Shown: in pieces, positions 18,463 through 24,509 of the stretch
Layout of the letters: every line of letters begins with the position of its first letter
How positions within the stretch are numbered: position 1 is the first letter of the stretch
Assembly: GCA_031274525.1 (NCBI GenBank)
Contig: JAISQA010000022.1
Coordinates: 1 to 51,576, forward strand
Direction of reading: 5' to 3'
From: Candidatus Margulisiibacteriota bacterium
Lineage (GTDB): Bacteria > Margulisbacteria > Termititenacia > Termititenacales > Termititenacaceae
Length of the DNA: 51,576 bases
The notes under the pieces: generated by a model
The model's database searches: none
What the model was told of the DNA's origin: nothing
Seen by the model: the letters and a program-made list of their open reading frames with translations, nothing else
Made by a program: the position numbers and the translations under genes

Positions 18463-20196
18463 ATGAAACTCTATATTAGATTGTGGCCTTTTTTCCGCGA
18501 GCACTGGGGGCGCTGTCTGGCCGCGCTGGCCAATGTTTTTCTTTTTGCGCTGTCCAATATTTATTTTTTGGCTCTGGTCAAAGAATTAAGCTACGACATC
18601 GAGCGCGGCAATATCGGACTTTTTATTTACCGGATCTGCGCCGGTCTGGTTTTGGCGCTGGTTCGCTCGCTGGCTTCTTACGGCCAGAGTTACAACATGG
18701 ACTGGATCGGCCAGCGGCTGGTGATGAAGCTGCGCGTGCGCATGTATGAGCATCTGCAAAAACTCTCGCTGGATTTTTTCAATAAATGGAAAGTAGGGGA
18801 AATAATGTCCCGCTCCACCAACGATCTGCAGATCGTGCAGAATGTTTTTGTCTCCAATATAGTCACGCTTTTGCCGGAGGCGGTGACTTTTGTCGGCGTG
18901 CTGATTTATCTGACGGCGCTCAACTGGCAGCTGCTGATCATGACGATCATCACTCTGCCGCTTTTTGCCTATCTGATCCAGCTTTTTACTTCCCGGATGC
19001 GGCGCATCAGTAAATATAATCAGCGCAAGCTCGCGGATCTGGCCTCGGTTTTGCAGGAGTCCATATACGGTGTCAGCATTATCAAAGCCTTTGCCGCGGA
19101 ACGGAAAGAGATCAGCAAATACACCAGAGAGAATGAGCGTTCTTTCTGGATCAGCATGAAAGGCTCGCGCCTGCACGCTATGCAGGAGCCGATGCTTTTT
19201 ATGCTGCAAATCACCATGATCCTTTTGATATTTATGGTCGGCGGCGTGCAGATCATCGAGGGTAATATTACCGTCGGTAATTTTATTGCCTTTTGTCTGG
19301 GTCTGGGCATGCTGGTCAATCCGGTGACGATTTTCGGCAAAGTCACCGTGAAGCAGCAGCAGGCCTATGTCGCGCTGGACCGGATTTTTGAGCTGCTGGA
19401 CACCGAGCCGACCGTCAAGGAAGCGGCCAAACCGCGGCGTCAGGCCATTGCCGGCAATGTGCAGATCGTGGACTTGAGCTTTGCCTATAACGTGGCTAAC
19501 GGGCTGGTCTTGAAGGACATCAATCTGGACGTCAAAGCCGGCGAAGTGATCGCTCTGGTCGGCCCCTCCGGCAGCGGCAAAACCACGCTGGTCAATCTGC
19601 TCCCGCGTTTTTATGACGCCACGCAGGGCAGGGTTTTGATCGACGGAGTGGATGTGCGGGAATACGCTTTTGATTCTCTGCGCGGCCAGATCGGCATTGT
19701 CACGCAGGAGACGATCCTTTTCAGCGGGACGATCCGCGACAATATTACTTACGGCAAGGAGCATGCCACGCAGGCCGAGATCGAAAAAGCGGCGCAGATG
19801 GCCAACGCGCATAATTTCATAAAACTTTTTCCCTCCGGCTATATGACTTATCTGGGCGAGCGCGGCGTGCGGCTCTCCGGCGGCCAAAAACAGCGCGTGG
19901 CCATAGCCAGAGCGATTTTGAGCGACCCCAAAATTTTGATCCTGGACGAAGCCACTTCTGCGCTCGATAATGAATCCGAAAAACTTGTCCAGCAGGCGCT
20001 GGAAAATCTGATGCGCCGCCGCACGACTTTCATTATCGCGCACCGGCTCTCGACGGTCCGCAATGCCGACCGTATCGTGGTCATCGACGACGGCCGGATC
20101 TCGGCCATAGGCCGGCATCAGGAACTGCTCCAGACCAGCCCGGTTTACCAAAAACTTTACCGCCTGCAGCTCAAGCAGGAACAGGAAAATGCCTAA
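18463..20196 (+). CDS. MsbA-type ABC exporter (fused membrane and ATPase domains)
   Basis: 577 residues. Six membrane helices lie in about residues 10-300, followed by the nucleotide-binding domain: Walker A ALVGPSGSGKTTLV, Q-loop IGIVTQETILFSG, signature LSGGQKQRVAIARA, Walker B ILILDEATSALD and switch His IIAHRLST. The intact domain order and length match lipid flippases of the MsbA group. With an LpxB-like enzyme, RfbD and a glycosyltransferase around it, a glycolipid is the likely substrate (inference). Three bases follow rfbD, and the next gene overlaps by 8 nt. Confidence 0.92.
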   Translation: MKLYIRLWPFFREHWGRCLAALANVFLFALSNIYFLALVKELSYDIERGNIGLFIYRICAGLVLALVRSLASYGQSYNMDWIGQRLVMKLRVRMYEHLQKLSLDFFNKWKVGEIMSRSTNDLQIVQNVFVSNIVTLLPEAVTFVGVLIYLTALNWQLLIMTIITLPLFAYLIQLFTSRMRRISKYNQRKLADLASVLQESIYGVSIIKAFAAERKEISKYTRENERSFWISMKGSRLHAMQEPMLFMLQITMILLIFMVGGVQIIEGNITVGNFIAFCLGLGMLVNPVTIFGKVTVKQQQAYVALDRIFELLDTEPTVKEAAKPRRQAIAGNVQIVDLSFAYNVANGLVLKDINLDVKAGEVIALVGPSGSGKTTLVNLLPRFYDATQGRVLIDGVDVREYAFDSLRGQIGIVTQETILFSGTIRDNITYGKEHATQAEIEKAAQMANAHNFIKLFPSGYMTYLGERGVRLSGGQKQRVAIARAILSDPKILILDEATSALDNESEKLVQQALENLMRRRTTFIIAHRLSTVRNADRIVVIDDGRISAIGRHQELLQTSPVYQKLYRLQLKQEQENA

Positions 20197-21259
20197 ATTA
20201 AGAGCAGGGTGTTATACCGCCCGGTTTCTGGATCTTTCCGAGACTTTTATTTATGAGCCGCTGCGCCTGCTCCAGAACACCGAAGCGCTGGTCTATGCCT
20301 GGCAGCGGCGCAATGCGGACAAATTCCCTTACGCGGACTGCTGTATCGGCCGTCCCTCTTACCTGCGGGAGAATATGCTGCGGGATAATCTGCAGCTGCT
20401 GCACGCGCATTACGGCTATGTCGGCGTATCGGCGCTGGGTTTCCTCACGAAACTGCACGTGCCGCTGGTCACCAGTTTTTACGGTCTGGACGTATACCAG
20501 CACACCAAAAATCCGGTTTACCGCTGGCAGCTGCGCCGCTTGTTTAAGCGCGGCGATTTATTTCTGGTCTGTTCGCAGAAGATGCGGGGGGATTTGATAG
20601 GGCTGGGCGCGCCCCCTTCTAAAATAAAAGTCCTGTACGGCGGCGCGGATCTGGCCAAATTTCCTTATGCTTTCAACGCCTGCCCGGAAAAAGACCCGGC
20701 GACGATCCTGATGTGCGGCCGTTTTGTGGAGAAAAAAGGTTTTCTTTACGGTCTCCGGGCTTTTTTGCGGGTGGCGCCCGGATATGACAATCTGCGCCTG
20801 AAGATCATCGGGGACGGCCGGCTGGCCCCGGAATTGAAGCGTGAAGCGGCAAGTTCGCCTTTCGGCTCTCAAGTGGAGTTTTTGGGCGGTTTGAGCCATG
20901 CGGAGTATATCGCCCAGCTGAAAAAATGCCATATTTTTATGTCGCCGTCCGTCACGGCGCACAATGGCGACAGCGAGGGGCTGCCGACGGTGCTCATCGA
21001 GGCCGCGGCGCTGGGCCGGCCTTTACTGGCTACTGTTCATTCCGGCATACCGGAGATAGTCCACGCCGGGCAGAACGGCCTGCTGGCTCCGGAAAAAGAT
21101 GTGGCGGCGCTGGCGGCCAATATCGACAGCTTGATGTCTGCGCCCGGCCAGTGGCGCGCTTATTCCGAATACGGGCGGCGGCTGGTCGAAGAACAGTTTG
21201 ATCTGGCCAAACAGACGGAGAAGCTGGAGAGCCTGTATTTGACGCTTGGGAATATATAG
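20189..21259 (+). CDS. GT4-family glycosyltransferase
   Basis: 356 residues. A GT-B fold is indicated by HAHYGYVGVSAL in the acceptor lobe and, in the donor lobe, KVLYGGADLAKFPY, ILMCGRFVEKKGFLYGLRAF, KIIGDGRLAPEL and the E-x7-E motif in EGLPTVLIEAAALGRPLLAT with GIPEIV. It probably adds a sugar from a nucleotide donor to the glycoconjugate exported by the neighbouring ABC protein. It is last in the seven-gene run; no clear terminator follows. Confidence 0.9.
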   Translation: MPKLRAGCYTARFLDLSETFIYEPLRLLQNTEALVYAWQRRNADKFPYADCCIGRPSYLRENMLRDNLQLLHAHYGYVGVSALGFLTKLHVPLVTSFYGLDVYQHTKNPVYRWQLRRLFKRGDLFLVCSQKMRGDLIGLGAPPSKIKVLYGGADLAKFPYAFNACPEKDPATILMCGRFVEKKGFLYGLRAFLRVAPGYDNLRLKIIGDGRLAPELKREAASSPFGSQVEFLGGLSHAEYIAQLKKCHIFMSPSVTAHNGDSEGLPTVLIEAAALGRPLLATVHSGIPEIVHAGQNGLLAPEKDVAALAANIDSLMSAPGQWRAYSEYGRRLVEEQFDLAKQTEKLESLYLTLGNI

Positions 21260-21348
21260 AAAGTAATAATTCCTGCTATTTGTATTTACTGCGGGGCAGA
21301 TAAAGAATTGGTGCGTCATATTTGTTCAAAATTTTACCTCCGGTTTTG

Positions 21349-21849
21349 CTAGTTGTGATGAGGGGCAATATCTGACGTAAGCCTACCATGTTCCATAGAA
21401 GATACAGTACCGTCATTGTTTCCATATCTATGATAAATTTGGTCTCCTCTACCAAAGTCTCCGTCGCCGGTCGTATCAAAAATGGCATCTTGTTTGAAAC
21501 CAGTGGGAGTTTTTATTGTTTTAGTCATCATGTCTGGTTCTCCATCGGAACCTTTGAAGAATTTCCATCCGTCTGCCTCTAGAGCGGATCTGCCAGATGG
21601 CATACTCCCTGTAGGCCGAGCTACAGTTGCTTGAGGTTGGCTGGTTGTAGACTGTTTATTAATTGGTTTATGAAATTCTGATTGTTGCGGCTGCTTAAAG
21701 AATTCGTCACCAGTATTTTGTGGTGCTTGGTTGGCAGTCGGATTATTTTGCGATGCGGCAATTCGACTATCCATTCTGCCAAGAGCAGCATTTGCTGCAT
21801 TTCGCGCCGTTTCTATTCCTCCAGCTAATTGAGTGTTTAAGTATCTCAT
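21349..21849 (-). CDS. Hypothetical Gln/Asn/Pro-rich protein with an EF-hand-like loop
   Basis: 166 residues, ATG preceded by AGGAGGG six bases upstream. No signal peptide or membrane segment. Residues ~35-80 are low complexity (Q, N, P, T), followed by a compact C-terminal part containing DTTGDGDFGRGD (residues 125-136), which has acidic or oxygen ligands at positions 1, 5, 7 and 12 with Gly at 6, as in EF-hand or dockerin calcium loops; position 3 is Thr. The gene has a 270-nt upstream region holding a candidate structured RNA. I do not recognise the family. Base use is more AT-rich than the operon before it. Confidence 0.65.
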   Translation of the reverse strand: MRYLNTQLAGGIETARNAANAALGRMDSRIAASQNNPTANQAPQNTGDEFFKQPQQSEFHKPINKQSTTSQPQATVARPTGSMPSGRSALEADGWKFFKGSDGEPDMMTKTIKTPTGFKQDAIFDTTGDGDFGRGDQIYHRYGNNDGTVSSMEHGRLTSDIAPHHN

Positions 21850-21871
21850 AATTTCCCTCCTAAATTTTTTT

Positions 21872-21990
21872 CCAAACGCAAAAACTACCCAGCCAGCCCC
21901 TCCTTGCTGGCGAAAGAGTGTCAGCCGCAGATACGGCTGACGCCCTTACCGGAATTACCCGGAAAGGTTTTTATTATTTATTGCGTTCGG
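21872..21990 (-). ncRNA. Candidate structured 5' UTR RNA (possible riboswitch)
   Basis: On the minus strand, CCGAACGCAA (21981-21990) pairs with TTGCGTTTGG (21872-21881) as a 10-bp closing stem with one G-U. Inside are three hairpins: CCTTTCCGG/CCGGTAAGG (21944-21967, loop GTAATT), GTCAGCCG/CGGCTGAC (21920-21941, loop TATCTG) and GCCAGC/GCTGGC (21892-21911, loop AAGGAGGG). This makes a four-way-junction RNA ending about 10 bases before the AGGAGGG of the downstream gene. I match it to no riboswitch class I know. Confidence 0.55.
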
Positions 21991-22005
21991 ATTACTTAGA
22001 TTTTT

Positions 22006-22034
22006 AGCGTAGGTACGCCAAAAATGGGGGGGGG
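22006..22034. repeat. Hairpin and nine-base G/C homopolymer upstream of the 21849 gene
   Basis: TTTTTAGCGTA/TACGCCAAAAA forms a hairpin around 22001-22024, followed by nine consecutive G (22026-22034; C on the minus strand). On the minus strand a TAAAAT lies just upstream of the C-tract. The remainder of 22035-22320 shows no gene I can support. Confidence 0.45.
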
Positions 22035-22321
22035 TAATTTTAAAATACGTATTCTTTAACATAAAATTCTCCCAAAACTTTGTCATTTTTACGGTTCGAT
22101 TTTGCTTACCGTTAATTATTCACGTCTACTAATACCCGCTTTTGCCAGAATTATACATTTGCTATATCGGTGAAAATTTATTTTTCCATGCAGGGAATTT
22201 TTCTGTTTTTGTGCGGACACGGGAGCTGTTCAGTCATTTTCCAAAAATAAACAGCCTGATGGAATGTTTCCGGGGGATAAAAAACCGGGATAAAAGGTTG
22301 TTGAACGGGTACTACTTTAAC

Positions 22322-22349
22322 TTGACAAGCCAATCCTATTGTCTATAGT
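22322..22349 (+). promoter_or_regulatory. topA promoter
   Basis: TTGACA (22322-22327) and TATAGT (22344-22349) are separated by 16 bp; topA starts at 22371 behind AAGGGG. This is the best-matching -35/-10 pair in the window. Confidence 0.8.
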
Positions 22350-22370
22350 ATCGAACAATAAGGGGCAGCA

Positions 22371-24509
22371 ATGGCAGCTAAATTCAAATATCTGGTCATC
22401 GTGGAATCACCCGCCAAATCCAAAACGCTGGAGAAATATCTGGGCAAGGATTACAAAGTTCTGGCCTCGATGGGGCATTTGCGGGATCTGCCCAAAAGCC
22501 GCATTGCCATTGATGTGGAGAATAATTTTGAGCCGTCCTACTGCATTATCAAAGGCAAAAATAAGATCGTCAAAGAACTCAAGACTTATGCGGCCAAAGC
22601 CGAAAAAGTGTTTCTGGCTCCTGACCCGGATAGAGAAGGCGAGGCTATCGCCTGGCATCTGGTGCAGGCGCTGGATCTGCCGGCGGATAAATTTGAGCGC
22701 ATCGAATTTAACGAAATTACCAAAAACGCCGTGCTGGGTTCTTTTGACCGCGCGCGCGGCATTGACCTCAACCGGGTAAATGCCCAGCAGGCGCGCCGCT
22801 GTCTGGACCGGCTGGTCGGCTACAAGATCTCGCCGCTGCTCTGGAAACGCGTGCGCCGCGGCTTATCCGCCGGCCGTGTGCAGTCCGCCGCGATGCATCT
22901 GATCTGCGAGCGGGAAACGGTTATTCAGCAGTTTAAGCCGCAGGAATACTGGAATATTGACGCGCAGTACTTAAAAGGCACGCGCTTCACAGCCAGAGTT
23001 TTTAATAAGGTAGATAAAGTAGCGGATTTTATTGTGCCCGATGCGGCGACCGCGGAGCTTATCCAGAGCGCGGTCAGGGAAAATCCCTCGACTGTGGTCA
23101 ATGTCAACCGCCGGGAACGCCGCCGCAACCCTTACGCGCCGTTTATTACCAGCACGCTGCAGCAGGACGCGGCCAAAAAACTGGGATTTAACACCCGCCG
23201 GACGATGATGATCGCCCAGCAGCTATACGAAGGCGTGGAGCTGGGTGCGGAAGGGCAGGTCGGTTTGATCACCTATATGCGCACGGATTCGACGCGCATA
23301 GCCGAGCAGGCGCTGACAGAATCGCGCGGCTATATCCGGGACAATTTTGGCGCGGGATTTTTGCCGGAAGCCCCCAATGTTTACAAACAGAGCAAGTCTG
23401 CGCAGGACGCCCACGAATCGATCCGCCCGACTTCTGCGCTGCGTGAGCCGCAGATCGTGGAGCAGTATCTGACCGCCGACCAGCAAAAGCTCTACACGCT
23501 GATCTGGCGGCGTTTTGTGGCTTGCCAGATGCTGCCGGCAGTCTATGACCAGACCACGATCGAGATACAGGCCGGTGATTATTTGCTGAAAGCCACCGGC
23601 TCTATCATTAAGGAAACCGGCTTCTTGAAAGTCTATGAAGAAGCGACGGAAGAAGATGCCGCGAATAAAGACGCCGAAAATGTGCGGCTGCCGGAGCTTC
23701 AGTCCGGTGACGTGCTGGAATTGCTGGCTGTGGCCGGTCAGCAGTGTTTTACCCAGCCGCCGGCCAGATATTCAGAGGCCTCGCTGGTCAAAGCGCTGGA
23801 GGAGCTGGGCATCGGCCGGCCTTCGACTTACGCGCCGATTATCTCCACGCTGCAATTCCGTAATTATGTGCAGAAGCAGGGCCGGGCGCTGGTGCCGACC
23901 GAGCTGGGCGTTATCGTGGACAGGCAGATCCAGAAGCATTTTCCCAAAATAGTGGATTCGGGCTTTACCGCCGGTATGGAGCTGAATCTGGACGAAGTGG
24001 AAGAAGGCAAACAGAACTGGCGCGAAATGCTGGGCGTATTTTATACGCCGTTTGCCAGAGAGCTGGTCGACGCGGAAGAAAAAATGGAGGATATGCGCGT
24101 CAAAGACCGCCCGACTGACGAAGTGTGCGACAAATGCGGCAAGCCAATGGTCATCAAATCCGGACGGTTCGGTGATTTTATGGCCTGCAGCGGTTTTCCG
24201 GAATGTAAAAATACTAAAAGTATCTTGAAGACTCTGGAGGATATTGTCTGCCCCCTGTGCGGCGCGCCAGTCGCTGAACGCCGCTCCAAAAAAGGCCGCA
24301 TATTTTACGGCTGCTCGGCTTACCCGGAATGTAGCTTTGCTGCCTGGGACAAGCCGCTCAAGGAATTTTGCCCAACCTGCGGCGCGTTTATGGTGGAGCG
24401 CAAAGACAAGGCTTCCGGTGAAAAAATAAAACTGTGTATAATGTGCGATATCAAAAACAAAGAGACCGAAAAGAGCGGAGAGAACAATGCTGAAAATAGT
24501 GACCAATAA
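22371..24509 (+). CDS. topA: DNA topoisomerase I
   Basis: 712 residues. TOPRIM domain from the start (YLVIVESPAKSKTLEKYLG, acidic LAPDPDREGEAIAWHL), the catalytic Tyr in LITYMRTDSTRIAE (about residue 302), and the LVKALEELGIGRPSTYA motif. Three C-terminal four-Cys zinc modules follow (CDKCGKPM ~586, CPLCGAPV ~627, CPTCGAFM ~667). It relaxes negative supercoils. Consensus promoter upstream. Its last 23 nt overlap a small ORF in another frame that in turn overlaps panC. Confidence 0.96.
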   Translation: MAAKFKYLVIVESPAKSKTLEKYLGKDYKVLASMGHLRDLPKSRIAIDVENNFEPSYCIIKGKNKIVKELKTYAAKAEKVFLAPDPDREGEAIAWHLVQALDLPADKFERIEFNEITKNAVLGSFDRARGIDLNRVNAQQARRCLDRLVGYKISPLLWKRVRRGLSAGRVQSAAMHLICERETVIQQFKPQEYWNIDAQYLKGTRFTARVFNKVDKVADFIVPDAATAELIQSAVRENPSTVVNVNRRERRRNPYAPFITSTLQQDAAKKLGFNTRRTMMIAQQLYEGVELGAEGQVGLITYMRTDSTRIAEQALTESRGYIRDNFGAGFLPEAPNVYKQSKSAQDAHESIRPTSALREPQIVEQYLTADQQKLYTLIWRRFVACQMLPAVYDQTTIEIQAGDYLLKATGSIIKETGFLKVYEEATEEDAANKDAENVRLPELQSGDVLELLAVAGQQCFTQPPARYSEASLVKALEELGIGRPSTYAPIISTLQFRNYVQKQGRALVPTELGVIVDRQIQKHFPKIVDSGFTAGMELNLDEVEEGKQNWREMLGVFYTPFARELVDAEEKMEDMRVKDRPTDEVCDKCGKPMVIKSGRFGDFMACSGFPECKNTKSILKTLEDIVCPLCGAPVAERRSKKGRIFYGCSAYPECSFAAWDKPLKEFCPTCGAFMVERKDKASGEKIKLCIMCDIKNKETEKSGENNAENSDQ

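Follow-up and report, generated by a model that had tools for sequence, protein, structure and literature searches.

In Streptococcus gallolyticus, slippage of a GCAGA repeat within a leader peptide has been found by experiment to control a terminator located before the pil1 genes (Danne et al. 2014, PMC3894217). Besides pil1/pil3, our literature search, with subscription journals lying outside its reach, returned no second published case of repeat slippage combined with leader-peptide attenuation. Two further kinds of described systems come close: the attenuators of amino-acid operons such as trp and leu, where the position of the ribosome on a leader peptide decides whether a terminator forms, and the classical homopolymer contingency loci, whose poly-C or poly-G tracts are situated in a coding sequence or a promoter. 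The window analysed here, a whole stretch of 51,576 nucleotides from a Candidatus Margulisiibacteriota bacterium, contains at 21872-21990 a folded RNA that belongs, as its 3′ half, to a longer control leader and is not a riboswitch; this leader is quite probably phase-variable, with the structure as its output half.

A preliminary description of this region had reported a 10-bp closing helix and three internal hairpins forming a four-way junction, which would end some 10 bases before the ribosome-binding site of a small protein gene. All of these elements are present on the minus strand: the closing helix (P1) joins CCGAACGCAA (21990-21981) to UUGCGUUUGG (21881-21872), including one G-U pair, and encloses the hairpins H1 (21967-21943), H2 (21941-21920, 9 bp) and H3 (21911-21892, 6 bp, with the loop AAGGAGGG), whereas the AGGAGG motif (21861-21856) starts 10 nt past the helix. 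The minus strand of 21990-21872 folds with a minimum free energy of -55.3 kcal/mol, against -33.9 +/- 3.2 kcal/mol in dinucleotide shuffles (z = -6.7), none of the 200 shuffled sequences reaching this stability, and the plus strand is also stable (z = -7.6). Because the plus strand folds equally well, fold stability alone cannot assign the strand, which was taken from the adjoining 166-aa gene and from comparisons with related leaders. The region 21872-21990 scores at or above the gathering threshold for no Rfam 15 family; its top match under a permissive threshold reaches 15.5 bits where the family requires 440, and across the whole window Rfam 15 at the gathering threshold finds tRNAs only. 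The proposal of a structured cis-regulatory 5′ UTR outside Rfam, likely acting on the expression of the downstream gene, is upheld. What had been missed is the 5′ half of the leader, made up of a C9 tract, a palindrome and an upstream ORF, as well as the nature of H2 and H3, which together form a 58-nt insert missing from 10 of 10 related leaders with intact terminators. The features of the window leader are as follows.

21955..22062, minus strand: upstream ORF (leader peptide) MLKNTYFKITPPHFWRTYAKNLSNPNAINNKNLSG, ending in a stop, with GGGAG 5′ of its ATG; coding register supported in the group formed by the window, L007 and L008
22026..22034, minus strand: C9 homopolymer within the upstream ORF; its length modulo 3 sets the frame, and C5-C20 occupy the same place in related loci
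22001..22024, minus strand: near-palindrome of 24 nt, UUUUUGGCGUA-CC-UACGCUAAAAA, 3′ of the C-tract and common to the leader family
21981..21990, minus strand: 5′ arm of the closing helix P1, from the fold and the comparison of cognate and swapped arms
21943..21967, minus strand: H1, counterpart of the intrinsic-terminator stem in L008, L200, L199 and L007
21957-21955, minus strand: UAA stop codon of the upstream ORF, in the H1 loop
21885..21942, minus strand: 58-nt insert (H2 21941-21920 and H3 21911-21892), which parts H1 from the U-run
21880..21884, minus strand: U5 run, in relatives directly 3′ of the terminator stem
21872..21881, minus strand: 3′ arm of P1, overlapping the end of the U-run
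21856..21861, minus strand: Shine-Dalgarno AGGAGG of the downstream gene
21349..21849, minus strand: downstream gene, 166 aa, with no Pfam family above the cut-off

The same order of short ORF, C5-C20 tract, palindrome, folded region, Shine-Dalgarno and gene constitutes a module that occurs at about 45 loci in seven of the eight genomes of one family, the relatives of Termititenax. The shared palindrome reads UUUUUGGCGUA-NN-UACGCYAAAAA over 24 nt and is followed by a folded region specific to each group; a DNA search recovers from relatives the 5′ flank and the region round the ribosome-binding site, while the folded middle does not recur. When the family was searched with a covariance model built on C-tract plus palindrome, around 50 matches resulted (G003, 18; G004, 14; G006, 6; G002, 4; G000, G005 and G007, 3 each), of which a few are the palindrome scored on the reverse strand. 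This model finds no match in the sister species G001 and a single weak hit, not convincing, among 47 genomes outside the family; viral contigs hold no match to the C-tract and palindrome either. The named genomes matched by the window-leader pattern are only those of Candidatus Termititenax aidoneus, Candidatus Termititenax persephonae and one Margulisiibacteriota MAG, which makes a termite-gut relative of Termititenax the very likely origin of the window. Tract length varies among loci from C5 to C20, as read from one assembly per species. The palindrome was also considered as a conserved RNA hairpin and rejected as such: it is 91% paired, yet its covariation is not above that of shuffles, and G-U pairs outnumber A-C pairs (39 vs 10), but many of the sequences are close copies.

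For the 30 leaders in which the downstream gene is separate, we read the C-tract in all three registers. At least one register is open far past the palindrome in every leader (30 of 30), and the register encoding FWRxYAKNL is found in 28, the open register being a different one in L067 and L110. In most loci the other two registers end between -12 and +5 of the palindrome end, with one short register extending to +23 to +50 in six loci. With the limit set at 40 nt, 28 of the 30 leaders have one and only one open register, compared with 48% in shuffled sequence, although these loci are related and their counts hence not independent. Sequence-level support for coding in the long register comes from synonymous codon changes, from indels that preserve the frame and from loci where it is fused to a lipoprotein gene. 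The synonymous share of codon differences amounts to 0.64 in nine lipoprotein leaders, against 0.23 and 0.08 in the other frames, and to 0.42 among the window, L007 and L008, against 0.06 and 0.00. Groups B and C show no synonymous excess in the coding register (0.14 in group B), and selection on the group B peptide is unsupported by the codon pattern. Indels that keep the frame are a 60-nt insert in L011 and L094 and a 3-nt one in L002; L011 and L094 carry an identical, GC-rich 60-nt element, in frame, in otherwise different leaders. L055, which is devoid of a C-tract, encodes MKKVLNLNFSDIGAKNIGNPSALLAKAFSG before a stop codon, and its frame agrees with that of YAKNLSNPNAINNKNLSG in the window, likewise followed by a stop. 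In L070, L099, L100 and L114 the register corresponds to the signal peptide of the lipoprotein itself (for example FWHKYTKNTLHYCILISTIFFSLFFSGCGK), and these fusions therefore fix it as the productive one. Wherever the available upstream sequence suffices, in 23 of 23 loci, an ATG opens into the C-tract and is accompanied by a Shine-Dalgarno or, close by, a -10 box. Assembled tract lengths correspond to a short register in 22 of 23 cases, the window being the exception, an excess that may reflect either biology or homopolymer assembly errors.

Ten related leaders (L007, L008, L010, L072, L103, L104, L106, L110, L199 and L200) make up class I, and all ten contain an intrinsic terminator with its U-run, at -12 to -25 kcal/mol. 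The long ORF stops in the terminator loop in L007, L008, L199 and L200, with SG or TG as the last residues, and beyond it elsewhere, whereas the short-register ORFs stop 8-46 nt ahead of the hairpin, the distance being 8 nt in L008 and 24 to 46 nt in most. The class I Shine-Dalgarno is exposed, with an accessibility of 0.52 vs 0.32 in controls with a shuffled 5′ part. Among seven representatives, the P1 arms pair better with their cognates than when swapped (mean -13.4 vs -10.3 kcal/mol; 25 of 20,000 permutations). Comparison with related leaders sustains the closing helix only; the junction, H2 and H3 are unique to the window copy.

Judged by P1, H1 and the end of its ORF, the window copy is a class I leader. 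The terminator stem of L200 is GGAAAGGGC-UUUUUGCGUUUG; its window counterpart is composed of GGUAAGGG, then 58 nt with H2 and H3, and only afterwards UUUUUGCGUUUGG. Two of the three hairpins in the preliminary description are an insert, because H2 and H3 sit between H1 and the U-run, unlike in L200. No intrinsic terminator is called in the window copy, where H1 and the U-run lie 58 nt apart, and a search with a stringent pattern of the window-type terminator gave no matches. H3 together with the lower stem runs into the U-run at -13.0 kcal/mol, a weak substitute for a terminator, and a ribosome halted within H1 would leave it closed. At C9, the upstream ORF of the window is in the long register and ends in H1; clearing this ORF of pairing barely alters the accessibility of the Shine-Dalgarno, from 0.29 to 0.37-0.39. 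The 58-nt insert was also considered as a repeat or mobile element and rejected: chance matches aside, no second copy turns up in the window's own genome or among 94 relatives.

Class II leaders comprise the lipoprotein group A and the MRxLYT-type group B, and they have no terminator. Off-state accessibility of their Shine-Dalgarno is 0.19 and 0.04, vs 0.41 and 0.19 when the 5′ parts are shuffled. In a model that assumes ribosomes to keep the entire ORF unpaired, and which thus gives an upper bound, translation of the long register raises this accessibility strongly in group B (from 0.01 to 0.92 in L009, and from 0.00 to 0.88 in L048) and also in most of group A, with L050 and L062 as exceptions. 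Since compensatory changes affect only 2 of 32 pairs (10 close sequences, the 114-nt insert of L062 being left out), the class II helix rests mainly on the shuffle control.

The genes behind related leaders encode lipoproteins, EF-hand or repeat proteins, and unknowns. The C-terminal part of the 166-aa protein shows 48% identity over 85 aa to the 509-aa protein of L037, a locus whose leader belongs to class II. A glycosyltransferase gene and topA flank the 166-aa gene (window 20189-22371), and in G001, G005 and G007 they are near each other without it; the gene and its leader are accordingly an accessory insertion, their neighbours being found together in relatives that lack them. Downstream of L103, L104, L106, L010 and L072 there are repetitive proteins of the STDDQYPS type, which resemble fibre proteins; several are near contig ends, and one has a sub-threshold Pfam head-fibre match. 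The window's own genome harbours further C-tracts of the ordinary phase-variation type, within ORFs and between -35 and -10 boxes. L153 (G000:C26:7073) has a C11 tract between a -35-like TTGACT and TATAAT, with a 16-bp spacer, upstream of a lipoprotein gene, and from this layout it looks like promoter-spacer phase variation. Long C-tracts are inside or at the start of ORFs in L157 (G000:C51:9331), L160 (G000:C66:7530) and L150 (G000:C15:21223); by eye, one of the three is glycosyltransferase-like, one has an extra CA repeat and one is of an unidentified family.

The DNA itself shows the recurring module, the pattern of registers, the terminators and the Shine-Dalgarno pairing, and from these we infer the following switch. 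The C-tract in the short upstream ORF probably gains and loses bases through slippage. In the long register, which in the window corresponds to C9, ribosomes would pass the palindrome and the 5′ arm of P1 and stop inside the terminator-type hairpin, whereas in the other two registers they would stop before it. In an intact class I leader, the long register should block the terminator, leaving the gene on, and a short one should allow it to form, turning the gene off; in class II, the change of register would expose or hide the Shine-Dalgarno. The window copy, with its terminator split, may still work in this way, may have turned constitutive or may have been rewired.

The latter outcome, a former phase-variable attenuator broken by the 58-nt insert, with a constitutive gene and a four-way junction as a by-product, falls in our estimation just short of an even chance. 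Its H1 and U5 match the intact terminators of L008 and L200 and yet are 58 nt apart, no terminator is called, and the Shine-Dalgarno is 0.63 accessible when the ORF stops early; however, P1 and the ORF are both intact, and the H3 and lower-stem structure of -13.0 kcal/mol reaches the U-run and may replace the lost terminator. A new riboswitch, with the four-way junction binding a ligand, is highly improbable, despite a compact and strong fold that adjoins the Shine-Dalgarno and matches nothing in Rfam. The ligand sensing suggested in the preliminary description lacks support: the junction occurs only in the window copy, while relatives enclose within P1 one terminator hairpin of a different sequence. 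Moreover, no conserved unpaired core is seen, the closing helix is the only part with comparative support, and the downstream genes encode unrelated surface-type or unknown proteins and not a single metabolic pathway. What is conserved marks a leader under ribosome control, namely an ORF, the C-tract setting its frame, and either a terminator or a concealed Shine-Dalgarno.

A different reading takes the C-tract and palindrome for a DNA-level element, such as a recombination or protein-binding site, which spreads promoter and leader among surface genes and leaves the RNA folds as secondary. The strong conservation of the palindrome without significant covariation would fit this idea, as would the several copies at contig ends and the same neighbours flanking no leader or gene in relatives. 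A DNA site alone, however, would not be expected to conserve a frame and a synonymous pattern past the palindrome, nor to come with terminators placed relative to the ORF stop and hidden Shine-Dalgarno sequences, and we regard it as unlikely, although it is not exclusive of the leader switch.

Returning to the phase-variable leader, it is somewhat probable that the leaders form a family-wide regulon, where dozens of genes for surface or secreted proteins each lie behind a C-tract leader peptide that acts on either a terminator or a helix concealing the Shine-Dalgarno, the majority of loci being off at any time, so that an uncultured phylum would achieve phase variation through leaders and not through genes. 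The principle of pil1/pil3 would here rely on a homopolymer and extend to dozens of loci of a different phylum, each locus using one of two RNA outputs. Were this correct, it would amount to a generally applicable way of varying the surface at random that spares the regulated protein, and it would help to explain how these ectosymbionts could vary their surface.

As far as sequence can tell, the Termititenax leaders match the pil1 switch in anatomy. Like pil1/pil3, they have a short upstream ORF whose frame depends on how many units of a simple repeat it contains, a long register that ends within or beyond an intrinsic terminator and short ones that end before it (here in ten related leaders), and downstream genes for surface proteins. 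Unlike the GCAGA repeats of two pilus operons, the repeat is here a C homopolymer at about 45 loci of seven species in another phylum, and the leaders add a shared palindrome after the tract, the P1 helix round the terminator and a second class that hides the Shine-Dalgarno. With the classical contingency loci they share C8-C20 tracts near gene starts, L099, L100 and L114 being cases of a tract in the gene; the leader tracts, however, are in a separate short ORF and not in the regulated gene. As in the trp and leu attenuators, the position of the ribosome on a leader peptide would decide terminator formation, but the Termititenax peptides differ from one another, have no codon run for a regulatory amino acid tied to the function of the gene and owe their prolines to the C-tract; unlike the amino-acid attenuators, this switch would be genetic rather than metabolic.
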